Position numbers and translations under genes: made by a program
Part shown: positions 58,713-63,998 of the stretch, piece by piece
Layout: each line of letters begins with the position of its first letter
Position numbering within the stretch: the stretch's first letter is position 1
The notes under the pieces: generated by a model
Seen by the model: only the letters and a program-made list of their open reading frames with translations
Told to the model about the DNA's origin: nothing
Database searches by the model: none
Origin: Acidobacteriota bacterium
Lineage (GTDB): Bacteria; Acidobacteriota; Blastocatellia; Pyrinomonadales; Pyrinomonadaceae
NCBI GenBank assembly: GCA_018269005.1
Contig: JAFDVK010000052.1
Coordinates: 62,001-126,000, forward strand
Reading direction: 5' to 3'
DNA: 64,000 bases

Positions 58713-58761
58713 AGTTTCTACAAGTTTCCCACAGCTCTTCTCCATTGGTCCTTAGAAAAGA

Positions 58762-58797
58762 CGTGCGGCCGGATGCGTTGTCCGGCCGCGTTTTTTT
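58762..58797 (+). terminator. Intrinsic terminator after the lytic transglycosylase
   Basis: tgcggccgga and tccggccgcg form a nine- to ten-pair stem with a 7-base loop, followed by seven T. Confidence 0.88.
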
Positions 58798-58876
58798 GTA
58801 TGGACGTCGCCGGAGAGGCGTTTGGGAGCTGCCTGGTTGCCTCGAAACCGGTTCGGGCATAAAATCGTTCCTAAAT

Positions 58877-60244
58877 ATGAATTATCAAGACAACGTACTC
58901 GGGCTAATCGGCGATACGCCGTTGGTCCGGATCAATAAGCTCACAAAAGAAAGGAAGATCAAGGCGCAGGTGTTTGCAAAGATGGAGAGCCTGAATCCGG
59001 GATATTCGGTGAAGGATCGGATCGGCGTTTCGATGATCGATTGGGCCGAGGAGAAAGGCGTCCTGAAGAAAGGCGGAACGATCATTGAGGCAACGAGCGG
59101 CAATACGGGCATCGGACTTGCGGTCGTCGCGGCGGTCCGCGGATATAAGTGCATTTTCGTCCTGACGGAGAAGGTCTCGATCGAGAAGATGCGTTATCTG
59201 AAGGGCTTGGGCGCCGAGATCGTCGTTTGTCCGGCGGCGGCAAAGGCCGGAACGCCGGATCATTATCTAGTGACGGCAAAACGCATCGCTGACCAGACGC
59301 CGAATTCGTTCTATCCCGACCAATACAATCATCCGGCGAATCCTGCGGCCCATTACCGCACGACCGGCCCGGAGATCTGGCGTGACACCGACGGCAAGAT
59401 CACACATTTTGTCGCGGGCATCGGCACGGGCGGCACGATCAGCGGCACAGGACGCTATCTGAAAGAGCAGAACCCGAAGATCAAGGTGATCGGTGCCGAT
59501 CCGTATGGATCTATATTCAAATCGTACAAGGACACGGGCCACGTTCCCGAGGCGACGCCGTACCTCGTCGAAGGCATCGGGCAGTCGCTTCCGACCGGCA
59601 ATGCGGATATGAACACGATCGACGAGATCGTGAACATCACGGACCGCGAGTCATTCGATCTGGCGAGACAGCTGGCAAGGACCGAGGGTATATTTTGCGG
59701 CGGCTCGACGGGAACGAACCTTGCCGGCGCATTCAAGATCGCGAAGGATCTTGATGAATCTGCGGTCGTCGTATTTATCGTTGCGGATACAGGCGAGCAT
59801 TATCTGACGAAATTCCATTCGGATGAATGGATGAAGGAGAAACTGCTGCTCGAGCCGCAGCGTATAACCGCGAGCTTGATCGCCGACACGAAGAGCGAAA
59901 ACTCACCGACCGAGCTGATCTCGGTCGAGCCGGATGACATCGTTTCTGACGCTTTGACACGAATGACCGATGCCGGCATCACGCAGATGCCGGTGCTTCA
60001 GGATAACGTTCCGGTCGGCTCGTTCCACGAAAGCTCGATCCTTGCAAAGCTCCTCGGCGACAGGGAACTGTTCAATGCTAAGGTCTCGGACATTATGGAC
60101 AAGAGCTTTCCGGTGGTCGCGGTTGATACGAGCTTGAAGATAATTAAGGAAAAATTGCAAAAACATCCTGCCGTTCTCGTCGAGGATTTTAAGCGGATTA
60201 CGGGTATAATCACCCGGTCGGACGTTTTGGATATTCACGATTGA
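58877..60244 (+). CDS. Cystathionine beta-synthase with C-terminal CBS pair
   Basis: 455 residues from the ATG at 58877; the frame opens earlier but that part includes the terminator and is not coding in character. PLP Lys46 is in NPGYSVKDRIG; the phosphate loop is 'ATSGNTGIGLA'; 'GTGGTISGTGRYL' and 'GGSTGTNLAG' follow. Residues about 335-455 hold two CBS domains ('SDALTRMTDAGITQMPVL' and 'VSDIMDKSFPVVAVDTSLKI') that usually bind SAM or adenylates. It condenses homocysteine and serine in transsulfuration; O-acetylserine sulfhydrylase-like use cannot be excluded. A 17-bp gap leads to the next gene. Confidence 0.9.
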   Translation: MNYQDNVLGLIGDTPLVRINKLTKERKIKAQVFAKMESLNPGYSVKDRIGVSMIDWAEEKGVLKKGGTIIEATSGNTGIGLAVVAAVRGYKCIFVLTEKVSIEKMRYLKGLGAEIVVCPAAAKAGTPDHYLVTAKRIADQTPNSFYPDQYNHPANPAAHYRTTGPEIWRDTDGKITHFVAGIGTGGTISGTGRYLKEQNPKIKVIGADPYGSIFKSYKDTGHVPEATPYLVEGIGQSLPTGNADMNTIDEIVNITDRESFDLARQLARTEGIFCGGSTGTNLAGAFKIAKDLDESAVVVFIVADTGEHYLTKFHSDEWMKEKLLLEPQRITASLIADTKSENSPTELISVEPDDIVSDALTRMTDAGITQMPVLQDNVPVGSFHESSILAKLLGDRELFNAKVSDIMDKSFPVVAVDTSLKIIKEKLQKHPAVLVEDFKRITGIITRSDVLDIHD

Positions 60245-60260
60245 CCAAATTCGAACGCGG

Positions 60261-60701
60261 ATGAGCGATCCCTGGCAAATGCCCGAGCCTGTATTTCGCA
60301 CCTCAGAAGGCGAGATCGTTGAGGCGCGCCCGAGAAGCGAAGCGGCTCCGATCGAGAATGCGGCTCCAAGTGAAGACGCGGCCGCACTTGAGGCCCTCTA
60401 TGCTCCGCCGGATGAGATCAAGCCGGCGGACACCGGATCCGAACCCGAAGCAGTGCCCATCGCGGCTGCTCCGGCTGCACCCGCGGGAAAAGAAGCGGGC
60501 GGTGCGATCACCGATCAGCCATATGTCTCGGAGGAATATGACGTTGAGGAGATCAATGCGGCGGTCGTCGCCGCTACGCCGGCAAGAAAATCAAAAGGGA
60601 GCCTGATCTTCAAGCTGCTGGCCGCCGCCGTCGTGCTTGGCGCCTTGGCCGTCGCGGTCATCTTCCTCGCTTGGTTCTTGTTTATGCGGCCGACCGAATA
60701 G
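60261..60701 (+). CDS. Ala/Glu/Pro-rich protein with one C-terminal membrane helix
   Basis: 146 residues. Residues 1-110 are acidic and low in complexity, with repeated Ala-Pro and Glu runs. One transmembrane helix (about 117-140) is followed by FMRPTE, so it is tail-anchored with the acidic part in the cytoplasm. No family is recognised. It is 17 bp after cystathionine beta-synthase and upstream of two FHA proteins on the same strand, so it may be an adaptor for that membrane group; this is inference. Confidence 0.68.
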   Translation: MSDPWQMPEPVFRTSEGEIVEARPRSEAAPIENAAPSEDAAALEALYAPPDEIKPADTGSEPEAVPIAAAPAAPAGKEAGGAITDQPYVSEEYDVEEINAAVVAATPARKSKGSLIFKLLAAAVVLGALAVAVIFLAWFLFMRPTE

Positions 60702-60837: not shown

Positions 60838-62529
60838 ATGCAGTTCGCAATTCTTAAAACCGAAGATGGTGAGGTCGAGCTATCGAAGCCCGTGACCTCG
60901 ATCGGACGCACGTCAGATAATGACGTCTCATTCTCGGGGGATTCGAACATCTCACGGTCGCATGCTGAGATCGAGCTGCGCGACGGCACCTACTATTTGA
61001 TCGATCCCGGCAGCAGCAACGGAACGACTCTCAATGACGAGACTGTGAAGGGCGAAGTTCGGCTCACAGACGGCGATAAGATCGTTTTTGGAGGCTCAGC
61101 CAAGGCAGAGTTCCTATTCGGGTCTGCGACGCCTCAAAACGCTTCTGAAGGGCAAGCGGAGGCGAATCCGCAAACGCCATCGTCGGACGCCTTCAGTTCG
61201 GGCCCAAACCCGCTTTCGGACGCGGGCGGCCAGATCGGTTATCAGGCCGACTATGCAATGAATCAGGGCCTTTACGATGCGGGAAGCGGGCTGCGGAACA
61301 ACATCGCAAGTTCGCTCGCCTCGGGCGGTTCTTCCGGAGCATCTAGTGCGGCGGCAAGTTCTGCCGGAACGGCCGGAGCAGCGGCGGCCGAAACGGCTGC
61401 GAGCGGCAGCGGTTCGACGGTCTTGGTCGCAGGTATCGTCGGCGGCCTTGCGGTCGTCGCGATGGTCGGAGCCGGTGCGTACTACTACACACGCGGGGCG
61501 TCATCTTGCTCGGCGACGGCGAAGATCACGAGCCCCGAACAGGGCGAAACGCTCGCAAAGCCGACCGATATCCAGCTTGATATCTCGGACGCGGATGGCT
61601 GCGTCGCACGGGCGGTTCTAATGGTCGATCAAAAGCCGGTCGCATCCGCAGAGCCTCCGAATTTTGACGCGAGGATCGATCCGGCAGAGCATCCGGAACT
61701 CGCTGACGGCGACGTTCACGATCTCTCCGTTGTGCTCTATGACAAGAACGGCGGAGAAGCGGTGCAGAACAGCACCGTTATGCTCGCGTTCGATTCGCGT
61801 TCGGTCGCAAAACCTGAAACGCAAAATACACCTCAAGCCGGAGTGACGCCGCCGCCGCAAAATCCGACAGCCGTGAAGGTCACGCTCCTCGATGTGCAAA
61901 AAATGTCGCAGGCGCTTGTCAAAGAGTTTACGGGCGGGTTGGCATACGACCTCTCGGACAAGCAGTTTATGCAGGAGATCCAGAAGCGAACGGCAGAATA
62001 TGCGGCTCCGGGCTACACGGAAAGAGCCGCGAAATACCGCGATGCGATCAACGTGTCATTCACGCACGAACAGAACTTGGACGCGCCGCTCGGCTTTATC
62101 CTCGCGATGAGCCGCAGCAAGTTCGATCCCGCGAAAAAGGGCGATCTTGCAGGTCTATGGCAGATGAGCGATGCCTTTGTCGCCGACAACAAATACAACG
62201 GAACATGCGGCACGGAGACCATTGCCGACCCGGCCCAGAATTGTGCCGCGAAGGCGTGTGCCTTGTATATGAAATTCCTTGTTTACAGCGTTTTTGATTC
62301 GGATCCGATATACGCGGCGGCCGCATTTGGGAAGTCGCCGGCGGACGCTGCGGCCTGGAAGGCCACTTTTACTGCTGACAGGTCAAAGATTTGGAGTAAT
62401 ATAAAGACAGCGCCCGAACGTGAGCAGCTCGTAAGATTCTTTGCCGCAGGGATAGTCGCCGAGAACCCCCAAAAATTTGGCCTTGCGAACGAGCGGCCGC
62501 TTTCGGAGCTCTATCGTGTAACGATGTAG
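60838..62529 (+). CDS. FHA-domain membrane protein with an inactive lytic-transglycosylase-like domain
   Basis: 563 residues. FHA domain (1-95) with the phosphothreonine-binding set: GR (23-24), SRSH (39-42), SSNGT (59-63). Gly/Ser/Ala-rich linker, one transmembrane helix (about 194-217), an Ig-like beta-sandwich (about 224-320, 'ITSPEQGETLAKPTDIQLDIS') and a C-terminal SLT-like domain (about 350-563). At the catalytic position the sequence is LAMSRSKFD, so Arg426 stands where the adjacent paralog has Glu332 and active enzymes have Glu. The domain should therefore bind but not cut glycan. An adjacent paralog begins 11 bp later. The phosphorylating kinase is not in the window. Confidence 0.85.
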   Translation: MQFAILKTEDGEVELSKPVTSIGRTSDNDVSFSGDSNISRSHAEIELRDGTYYLIDPGSSNGTTLNDETVKGEVRLTDGDKIVFGGSAKAEFLFGSATPQNASEGQAEANPQTPSSDAFSSGPNPLSDAGGQIGYQADYAMNQGLYDAGSGLRNNIASSLASGGSSGASSAAASSAGTAGAAAAETAASGSGSTVLVAGIVGGLAVVAMVGAGAYYYTRGASSCSATAKITSPEQGETLAKPTDIQLDISDADGCVARAVLMVDQKPVASAEPPNFDARIDPAEHPELADGDVHDLSVVLYDKNGGEAVQNSTVMLAFDSRSVAKPETQNTPQAGVTPPPQNPTAVKVTLLDVQKMSQALVKEFTGGLAYDLSDKQFMQEIQKRTAEYAAPGYTERAAKYRDAINVSFTHEQNLDAPLGFILAMSRSKFDPAKKGDLAGLWQMSDAFVADNKYNGTCGTETIADPAQNCAAKACALYMKFLVYSVFDSDPIYAAAAFGKSPADAAAWKATFTADRSKIWSNIKTAPEREQLVRFFAAGIVAENPQKFGLANERPLSELYRVTM

Positions 62530-62540
62530 GCCGAAAGAGA

Positions 62541-63998
62541 ATGAAGTTCCTTTTCGTACAAGAAGTTGACGGCGAGACACGTGAGATCGTGCTTGAGAAA
62601 GAGCACACGACGATCGGGCGTGCGACGGACGTTGACCTGCAGCTTGACGATCAGGGGCTTTCGCGGCTGAATTCGACGATCTATCTTGAAGCCGATACGG
62701 TGCGGATCGTCGATAACGGTTCGACGAACGGCACGCTCGTGAACGATGAGCCTGCGTCGGCGGACGGCACGATCCTCGATGACGGCGATGTCGTAAAAAT
62801 GGGCAGCTCTACCGTGTTGAAATTCAAGAAGGCCGCGGAAGAAGCACCGGCGAATGCCGATGTCCAGCCCGACGCTTCGGCCGCCGCTTTTGCTCCCGCC
62901 GCGGCACCCGTTGCTGCTCCACCGCCTGCACCGGCGCCAACGCCGCTGAATTATTTGCCTTTGGCGATCATCGTCGGGGCAATATTCGTGATCGGGATTT
63001 CTGCGGCAGTGATCGCGATGACGGCCTTCTCAGGGAAAGGTGAAGTTGCTTCGACAAATCCGTACACCGGAGACGACCCGACATCTGCGGGCGATCGTGA
63101 CGGCGACCCCGGTTCGACACCGACGAGTTCGCCGTCGATTCAAGGCAGTTCCCAAACGGATACGAACGCATCGACGAATTCTGATCTTCCGCTTGCGCAA
63201 TCCACGCCCGTAAAGCCAGACCTTCCCGCAAAGCAGTATTCCGCGATGACGGACGCGGAAAAGCGTGCATATATCGAAGACCGTGCGATGCGCGTTGCCC
63301 AGATAATCGGCAATTCGACGAGCGAAAAGATCCCGCCCGATGCCGTTACGCGGATAAAAGGTTTCGTTGACGCGTATGTTTCACGGACGAAGGTCAGGCC
63401 GCTTTCGGGCTGCCGTTTTGGCGACAACTTGCAGGCGACCTATACGCGCGCGAGCAAGAACGCGCCGTTCATCATTCGAGCGTTCAACGAAAAGGGAATG
63501 GATCCGCGCATCGGGCTTTACCTCGCGATGATCGAGTCCGAACATTGCACGTGTCTGCAGAGTCCGACGGGGCCGCTCGGAATGTTCCAATTTACGCAGG
63601 CTACGGGAAGGCTGCACGGGCTGAATATCATTCCGGGCGCGACGCCCGCTCATCCTGATGAACGGTGCGAACCGGAACCGGCGTCGCGTGCTGCGGCATC
63701 GTATATGAAGGCGTTGGCCGGACGCTACGGAACCGGGCCGTCGAGCATTCCGCTCGCGATCGGCAGTTACAACAGCGGCGAAGGCGGCCTCAGTTCGAAC
63801 CTCGAAAAGGCATTGTCATCCGGGAGCGGTTTGCCGCGCGAATTTTGGACGCTTATCGAGAAGAGCGATATGCTCTCAAAGCAGTTCCAATCGGAGAACT
63901 TCAAATACGTGCCTAAATTTTTCGCCGCAGCGATCATTGGCGAGAATCCGAGAGATTTTGGCCTCGACCTGAACCCGATCTCGACATATACGAAATAA
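62541..63998 (+). CDS. FHA-like membrane protein with an apparently active lytic-transglycosylase domain
   Basis: 485 residues. FHA-like domain (1-95) with GR (26-27), SR (41-42) and STNGT (61-65), but the phosphothreonine-contacting His of SRxH is Asn44. Ala/Pro linker, one transmembrane helix (about 138-162), a Ser/Thr/Asp-rich spacer and a C-terminal SLT-like domain (about 300-485) with catalytic Glu332 (LAMIESEHC), 'GMFQFTQATG' and 'GSYNSGEGG'. Cysteines CTC and CEPEP suggest disulfides. It should cut peptidoglycan in the periplasm while its N-terminus faces the cytoplasm. The reading frame ends at the TAA two bases before the window edge. Confidence 0.85.
   Translation: MKFLFVQEVDGETREIVLEKEHTTIGRATDVDLQLDDQGLSRLNSTIYLEADTVRIVDNGSTNGTLVNDEPASADGTILDDGDVVKMGSSTVLKFKKAAEEAPANADVQPDASAAAFAPAAAPVAAPPPAPAPTPLNYLPLAIIVGAIFVIGISAAVIAMTAFSGKGEVASTNPYTGDDPTSAGDRDGDPGSTPTSSPSIQGSSQTDTNASTNSDLPLAQSTPVKPDLPAKQYSAMTDAEKRAYIEDRAMRVAQIIGNSTSEKIPPDAVTRIKGFVDAYVSRTKVRPLSGCRFGDNLQATYTRASKNAPFIIRAFNEKGMDPRIGLYLAMIESEHCTCLQSPTGPLGMFQFTQATGRLHGLNIIPGATPAHPDERCEPEPASRAAASYMKALAGRYGTGPSSIPLAIGSYNSGEGGLSSNLEKALSSGSGLPREFWTLIEKSDMLSKQFQSENFKYVPKFFAAAIIGENPRDFGLDLNPISTYTK

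Follow-up and report, generated by a model that had tools for sequence, protein, structure and literature searches.

FHA-bearing SLT-type proteins encoded alongside type VI secretion genes in Acidobacteriota: one candidate lytic transglycosylase and two predicted pseudoenzymes

At one end of a 64,000-nucleotide stretch of Acidobacteriota DNA, two neighbouring genes, here called A and B, each join an FHA domain to an SLT-type ectodomain through a transmembrane (TM) helix, which raises the question of what a phosphothreonine-binding fold and a wall-cleaving fold do within one polypeptide. This stretch, hereafter the window, comprises positions 62001-126000 of contig C47 in the source assembly (G000:C47:62001-126000; assembly size 3.55 Mb). 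A sequence-only reading of the window had proposed that the two proteins are a receptor and an enzyme, each lacking what the other retains, in a heteromer through which kinase signals gate wall cleavage. We found that the type VI secretion system (T6SS) genes lying outside the window are more informative than this two-protein reading. We favour, with a probability of roughly 0.6, the explanation that A, B and a third paralog, C, constitute a dedicated accessory T6SS module of Pyrinomonadaceae and related Acidobacteriota, devoted to signal-tied wall opening.

Table 1. Features of the A-B locus, in window coordinates
Feature	Coordinates	Strand	Details or evidence
146-aa single-TM protein upstream of A	60261..60701	+	ORF and TM prediction
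Gene A, FHA - TM - Ig-like - pseudo-SLT (predicted), 563 aa	60838..62529	+	
A, FHA domain, residues 20-85	60895..61092	+	Arg24, Ser39, His42 and Asn61 all present
A, transmembrane helix, about residues 195-213	61420..61476	+	
A, Ig-like beta domain, residues 227-318	61516..61791	+	Big_7, E 1e-4; AlphaFold model
A, SLT-like ectodomain, residues 358-563, catalytic Glu replaced	61909..62526	+	Profile-profile comparison and structure
A, codon of Arg426, catalytic Glu position	62113..62115	+	
Gene B, FHA - TM - SLT, catalytic motifs intact, 485 aa	62541..63998	+	
B, FHA domain, residues 23-88	62607..62804	+	
B, codon of Asn44, FHA His position	62670..62672	+	Lineage-specific
B, transmembrane helix, about residues 141-159	62961..63017	+	
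B, SLT domain, Pfam residues 311-423	63471..63809	+	
B, codon of catalytic Glu332	63534..63536	+	59/59 in relatives

ORF calls, FHA and SLT profiles and TM prediction bore out both the coordinates and the FHA-TM-SLT layout that had been read for the two genes (Table 1). The FHA matches are N-terminal in each protein (E = 3e-18 in A and 2e-13 in B), each protein has one TM helix, and the Ig-like domain (Big_7) was detected in 20 of 21 A proteins. The genes are separated by 11 bp, and the window ends two bases past B. A and B are indeed adjacent paralogs, as had been proposed, but they belong to a trio: C, a 398-aa protein of FHA-TM-ectodomain layout, starts 20 bp past B, just beyond the window, and is followed by genes for a CxxCxxCC protein, TssK and a zinc-ribbon/PH-domain protein. 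The CxxCxxCC (YkgJ-type) gene (L009 7272-8108, also just beyond the window) lies between C and tssK in most genomes of the genus, though not all. On the upstream side, homologues of the 146-aa protein occupy the same position in many relatives, diverge fast and are without a match to any Pfam or NCBIfam family. In most relatives the module is preceded by a gene for a cysteine synthase with CBS domains (window 58745-60244), which makes a handy locus marker. In several lineages, FGE-sulfatase-like, DUF4384 and trypsin-like genes occur repeatedly just upstream of FHA-SLT genes (L148 5924-8382; L158 1849-5913; L043 13056-16056; L199 and L204).

By profile and by its catalytic Glu, conserved in all relatives, gene B fits family 1 (SLT-type) lytic transglycosylases, scoring 48.9 bits against PF01464 (E = 5e-13; cut-off 21.3). 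A scores 14.6 bits against the same cut-off, and 22 C members gave no match to the SLT profile; with Arg in A and Lys or Arg in C at the Glu position, both fall outside family 1, A nevertheless having a related fold. Profile-profile comparisons of the ectodomains, made with the FHA and TM regions removed and with E-values that refer to single pairs, linked A to B (E = 4e-27) and B to C (E = 4e-9, probability 96%), and A to C more weakly (E = 2e-6, probability 79%). The A-B alignment places Arg426 of A opposite Glu332 of B. The loop bearing the conserved GMFQF motif is missing from C; counted from a shared Pro, the residue of C that corresponds to the Glu is Lys291. In the AlphaFold model of A (pLDDT about 85-95 across most of residues 350-560), residues 358-563 align with Pseudomonas aeruginosa MltD (PDB 8rhe) over 181 residues with a Z of 13.9, an rmsd of 3.7 and 16% identity; a Z of 13 can be reached by chance for helical folds, and for A the sequence relation agrees. 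The SLT-likeness on which the sequence-only reading depended was thus recovered in a structural model. The C ectodomain is modelled as confidently helical (pLDDT about 87-98). A Foldseek run against the PDB took the whole C model and returned FHA chains among the matches listed, and it is the profile comparison on which the B-C ectodomain relation rests.

To follow the catalytic position through relatives, we took a residue census of 48 A proteins, 59 B proteins (FHA-less relatives counted) and 45 C proteins readable at the Glu position. Arg stands at this position in 47 of the 48 A proteins, the sole exception being A of L158/L205, which has Glu there and a degenerate FHA site; in L204, another deep lineage, the residue is Gln. 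L205 and L204 are from two other Blastocatellia families, and because L158 has Glu and L204 Gln, the ancestral A plausibly had Glu. With L158 left out, 12 of the 214 ectodomain columns are invariant, that of Arg426 among them, yet this Arg is written with six codons (CGC, CGA, CGG, CGT, AGA and AGG). Near-fixation, invariance and codon variety together argue that this Arg has been kept by selection rather than drift. In B, the catalytic Glu, the Gln of GMFQF and the Tyr/Phe-Asn motif (YN/FN) were each found in 59 of 59 relatives. C carries Lys (36), Arg (5), Glu (3) or Gln (1), so that 41 of 45 have a basic residue, Lys or Arg. These residue states support the earlier view that the pair holds one apparently dead and one probably active SLT domain.

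The FHA domains present a different pattern. The phosphothreonine-binding residue signature (GR, S-x-x-H, NG) occurs in nearly all A and C proteins and in most B proteins: Arg and Ser were present in 46 of 46 A proteins and His in 44 of 46, while Arg, Ser and His were each present in 47 of 47 C proteins. Among 52 FHA-bearing B proteins, the His position is occupied by His in 42, by Asn in nine and by another residue in one, that of G037, where the whole FHA site is lost. The sequence-only reading had described this genome correctly, A having a complete FHA site with Arg426 for the catalytic Glu, and B keeping Glu332 with Asn44 for the FHA His. Its expectation of complementary residue states in other genomes held for the Arg of A and failed for the FHA His of B. 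In a tree of B, the Asn proteins comprise the lineage of the source genome (8 rows, support 98/95) and L113, which suggests one or two origins of the His-to-Asn change. Arg27, Ser41 and Asn63 are intact even in proteins with the substitution. In FHA domains the His is mainly structural, and Arg, Ser and Asn contact phosphate or peptide; for this reason the Asn form of the B domain may still bind its ligand.

What the trio might serve is indicated by its neighbours. The TssK encoded downstream of C and the CxxCxxCC gene matches PF05936 with E = 5e-129 and TIGR03353 with 392 bits (cut-off 100). The usual order in Pyrinomonadaceae (Acidobacteriota) is A-B-C-(CxxCxxCC)-tssK-tssL-tssM-tagJ-tssA-tssB-tssC, the genes after tssK belonging to the families DotU/TssL, IcmF/TssM, ImpE/TagJ, ImpA/TssA, TssB and TssC. 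G037, from another family, has a related trio at the same place, and L158/L205 have an A-B pair. In the source genome the T6SS genes are split: A-B-C-tssK stand at the locus, tssL-tssM-tagJ lie about 75 kb away (C47:43.9-49.0 kb), and tssA, tssB, tssC, tssE, tssF, hcp, a ClpV-like AAA gene and vgrG are on contig C9. Beside the ClpV-like gene, the VgrG carries a C-terminal M91 metallopeptidase-type effector domain (L093 13198-15945, G000:C9). The same contig encodes another FHA-TM protein, with a C-terminal DUF5715 match, about 20 kb from tssABC (L093 4650-6167).

Inheritance follows the same lines. We counted full-length FHA-bearing B and main-type TssK in 162 genomes of the class, leaving out seven genomes with a divergent TssK; 59 had both, one B only, five TssK only and 97 neither (Fisher p = 5e-37, a value that ignores genome kinship). 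Within the genus the corresponding counts were 30, 1, 0 and 10, and the lone B-only genome, a 600-contig assembly, still has TssC and TssL. Co-occurrence of the A-B pair across genomes, the check that the sequence-only reading called for, was near-constant. An even draw of 396 genomes from the phylum gave B-profile matches in this class only. In a few genomes (L199, L200/L201, L202 and L204), B is on a different contig from tssK. In the seven genomes set aside (G099, G111, G112, G133, G138, G150 and G151), the sole TssK-like protein is highly divergent (E about 1e-46 to 1e-39) and there is no FHA-bearing B; these genomes possibly possess a second type of contractile system. TssJ (PF12790) was not detected by sequence profile in any of 60 relatives, with a positive E. 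coli control, which by profile sets these systems apart from the canonical TssJ-containing T6SS. By synteny and co-occurrence, the trio is encoded and co-inherited with T6SS core genes, as expected of T6SS accessory genes; the conserved gene order and the co-occurrence of B with TssK therefore point to a T6SS module. An unrelated housekeeping wall operon was also considered and is made unlikely by the same two observations.

Phosphorylation would require a kinase, and none was found among the annotated genes of the T6SS clusters examined, nor was a phosphatase. The source genome has about 17 kinase matches elsewhere, including a weak one at C47:92331-92867, within the window. The class also encodes membrane-spanning Ser/Thr kinases, about 700 aa long, with an ectodomain homologous to the SLT domain of B (about 36% identity, Glu intact). 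The kinase genes usually run divergently from one that encodes a secreted protein with an SLT domain only (about 270 aa), and a gene for about 200 aa separates the two. This arrangement (L172 8633-10732 and 6838-7665; L167 8693-10774; similar architecture in L160-L174) occurs mostly in Blastocatellia without the T6SS trio. A Calditrichota genome encodes an FHA-TM-SLT protein with both sites intact (L184 247-1698); the next gene (L184 1770-3638) is for a PP2C phosphatase that has a single TM helix and matches TPR weakly, and the 3.7-kb contig holds no T6SS genes. Because kinases occur in the source genome and Blastocatellia kinases carry the same ectodomain family, a link between the trio and Ser/Thr phosphorylation is a reasonable supposition, and kinase-gated wall cleavage, as first proposed for the pair, remains plausible as a hypothesis.

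We propose the following scheme for the module. Each of the three proteins would present an FHA domain to the cytoplasm and, through its single membrane helix, an SLT-type domain to the periplasm. B would be a lytic transglycosylase tethered to the inner membrane, and would open the peptidoglycan of its own cell at the site where the T6SS membrane complex inserts. A and C, predicted to be pseudo-transglycosylases unable to cleave, would most likely grip or recognise peptidoglycan and would place B or keep it in check, the three probably forming a hetero-oligomer. The FHA domains would tie the trio to the phosphorylated machine by docking on a phosphothreonine of TssL, TssK, TssM or a partner, so that cutting would occur only where and when the machine assembles. 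Several points weigh against this explanation: no kinase or phosphatase was found among the annotated genes of the T6SS clusters, B may simply be a housekeeping enzyme whose gene sits in a convenient operon, and B sits away from tssK in a few genomes while five main-type TssK genomes have no detected FHA-bearing B. More tentatively, and short of an even chance, the TssJ-less T6SS of Acidobacteriota may have its own phospho-gated hetero-oligomer, of one FHA-tethered transglycosylase and two pseudoenzymes with Arg or Lys for Glu, that would couple Ser/Thr phosphorylation of the machine to local cleavage and also anchor the membrane complex.

Several other explanations bear weighing against wall opening by a T6SS module. 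The trio could instead act as a scaffold or anchor in the inner membrane, in the manner of SctD/YscD or GltG, which combine an FHA-like domain and a single TM helix with a part in the periplasm; on this view the SLT folds would only grip peptidoglycan and help to stabilise a membrane complex without TssJ, catalysis being incidental or absent. All three proteins also match Yop-YscD_cpl, the cytoplasmic domain of a T3SS inner-membrane component, two of the three are catalytically dead by residue, and TssJ was not detected in the 60 relatives. A pure anchor has no need of the whole active site that B retains in 59 of 59 relatives, though, and scores against the curated SctD, GltG and TagH families lie below their cut-offs, which makes this explanation unlikely. 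We give still less credence to a sensor, in which the SLT-type ectodomains would detect wall damage or muropeptides and signal from outside to inside, the FHA domains passing the message on so that T6SS assembly is controlled. TagQRST-PpkA-Fha1 of P. aeruginosa offers a model for it, the class has transmembrane Ser/Thr kinases with related ectodomains, dead SLT folds suit ligand binding, and the Arg of A is invariant; against it stand the fully conserved catalytic site of B and the nature of FHA domains as readers, for which an additional kinase would be needed that was not seen in the clusters examined.

The original two-protein heteromer, in which B would have lost FHA function and A catalysis, appears very improbable. 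It agrees with the residue states of this genome and its closest relatives, but most B proteins retain both FHA and catalytic residues, a third paralog exists, and homologs intact in both domains, which the sequence-only reading had itself named as counting against it, were found as far as the FHA half is concerned. Complementary loss as a general rule is ruled out by the census and by the one or two origins of Asn in the tree.

How a T6SS crosses its producer's own wall is an open question, and here a candidate transglycosylase, encoded near tssK, is fused to FHA, the kind of domain that elsewhere reads the T6SS phosphorylation switch; beside it, two apparently dead copies have been preserved under strong constraint. 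If the wall-opening explanation is true, wall opening, phospho-signalling and baseplate assembly converge in one small module, and the fixed Arg of A provides a clean handle on the role of a pseudo-transglycosylase. A literature search, whose coverage left most subscription journals outside, found no published fusion of FHA with an SLT or transglycosylase domain in a T6SS, and no paper pairing T6SS with Blastocatellia. FHA regulation and wall opening are both familiar T6SS themes; the locus combines them through a fusion and a three-paralog arrangement that we did not find described.

Of the T6SS families, TagH/Fha (TIGR03354), which also has an N-terminal FHA domain encoded in a T6SS cluster, is the one that the FHA parts of the trio match best, at 42.8, 32.8 and 53.9 bits for A, B and C, mainly over FHA and against a cut-off of 120.25; the trio differs in that a TM helix connects its FHA domain to an SLT-type domain predicted to lie in the periplasm. 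The PpkA/PppA phosphorylation signal is passed on by FHA proteins, in P. aeruginosa to TssK and in Agrobacterium to TssL (PMC10433429). SctD/YscD and GltG likewise place a cytoplasmic FHA-like domain in the context of a large machine; they differ from the trio, which has an SLT ectodomain and scores below the family cut-offs (B reaches 19.3 of 86 bits for SctD and 45.0 of 650 for GltG; GltG gives 22.8 for A and 40.1 for C). On the ectodomain side, P. aeruginosa MltD (PDB 8rhe, 8rhi and 8rhf) is the closest solved fold to A among the matches listed and is also among the profile matches of B, but the MltD entry has no FHA domain and A has its catalytic Glu replaced. TagX of Acinetobacter is, as the available text of the sources has it, a T6SS-encoded, membrane-bound peptidoglycan hydrolase of a T6SS without TssJ (PMC5061870; PMC10564176), an endopeptidase according to a review and a polytopic lytic transglycosylase according to PMC10564176; that text mentions neither an FHA domain nor pseudoenzyme partners for TagX, in which it differs from the trio. 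Dedicated transglycosylases are the exception in T6SS clusters according to a 2023 review (PMC10433429), and enteroaggregative E. coli (EAEC) recruits MltE to its T6SS through TssM (PMC10433429). MltE is a lytic transglycosylase with the role that is proposed here for B, making way through the peptidoglycan for the T6SS membrane complex (PMC10433429). It is, however, a housekeeping enzyme stimulated by TssM, whereas the candidate B is encoded with the T6SS and comes with an FHA domain of its own and two apparently dead paralogs.
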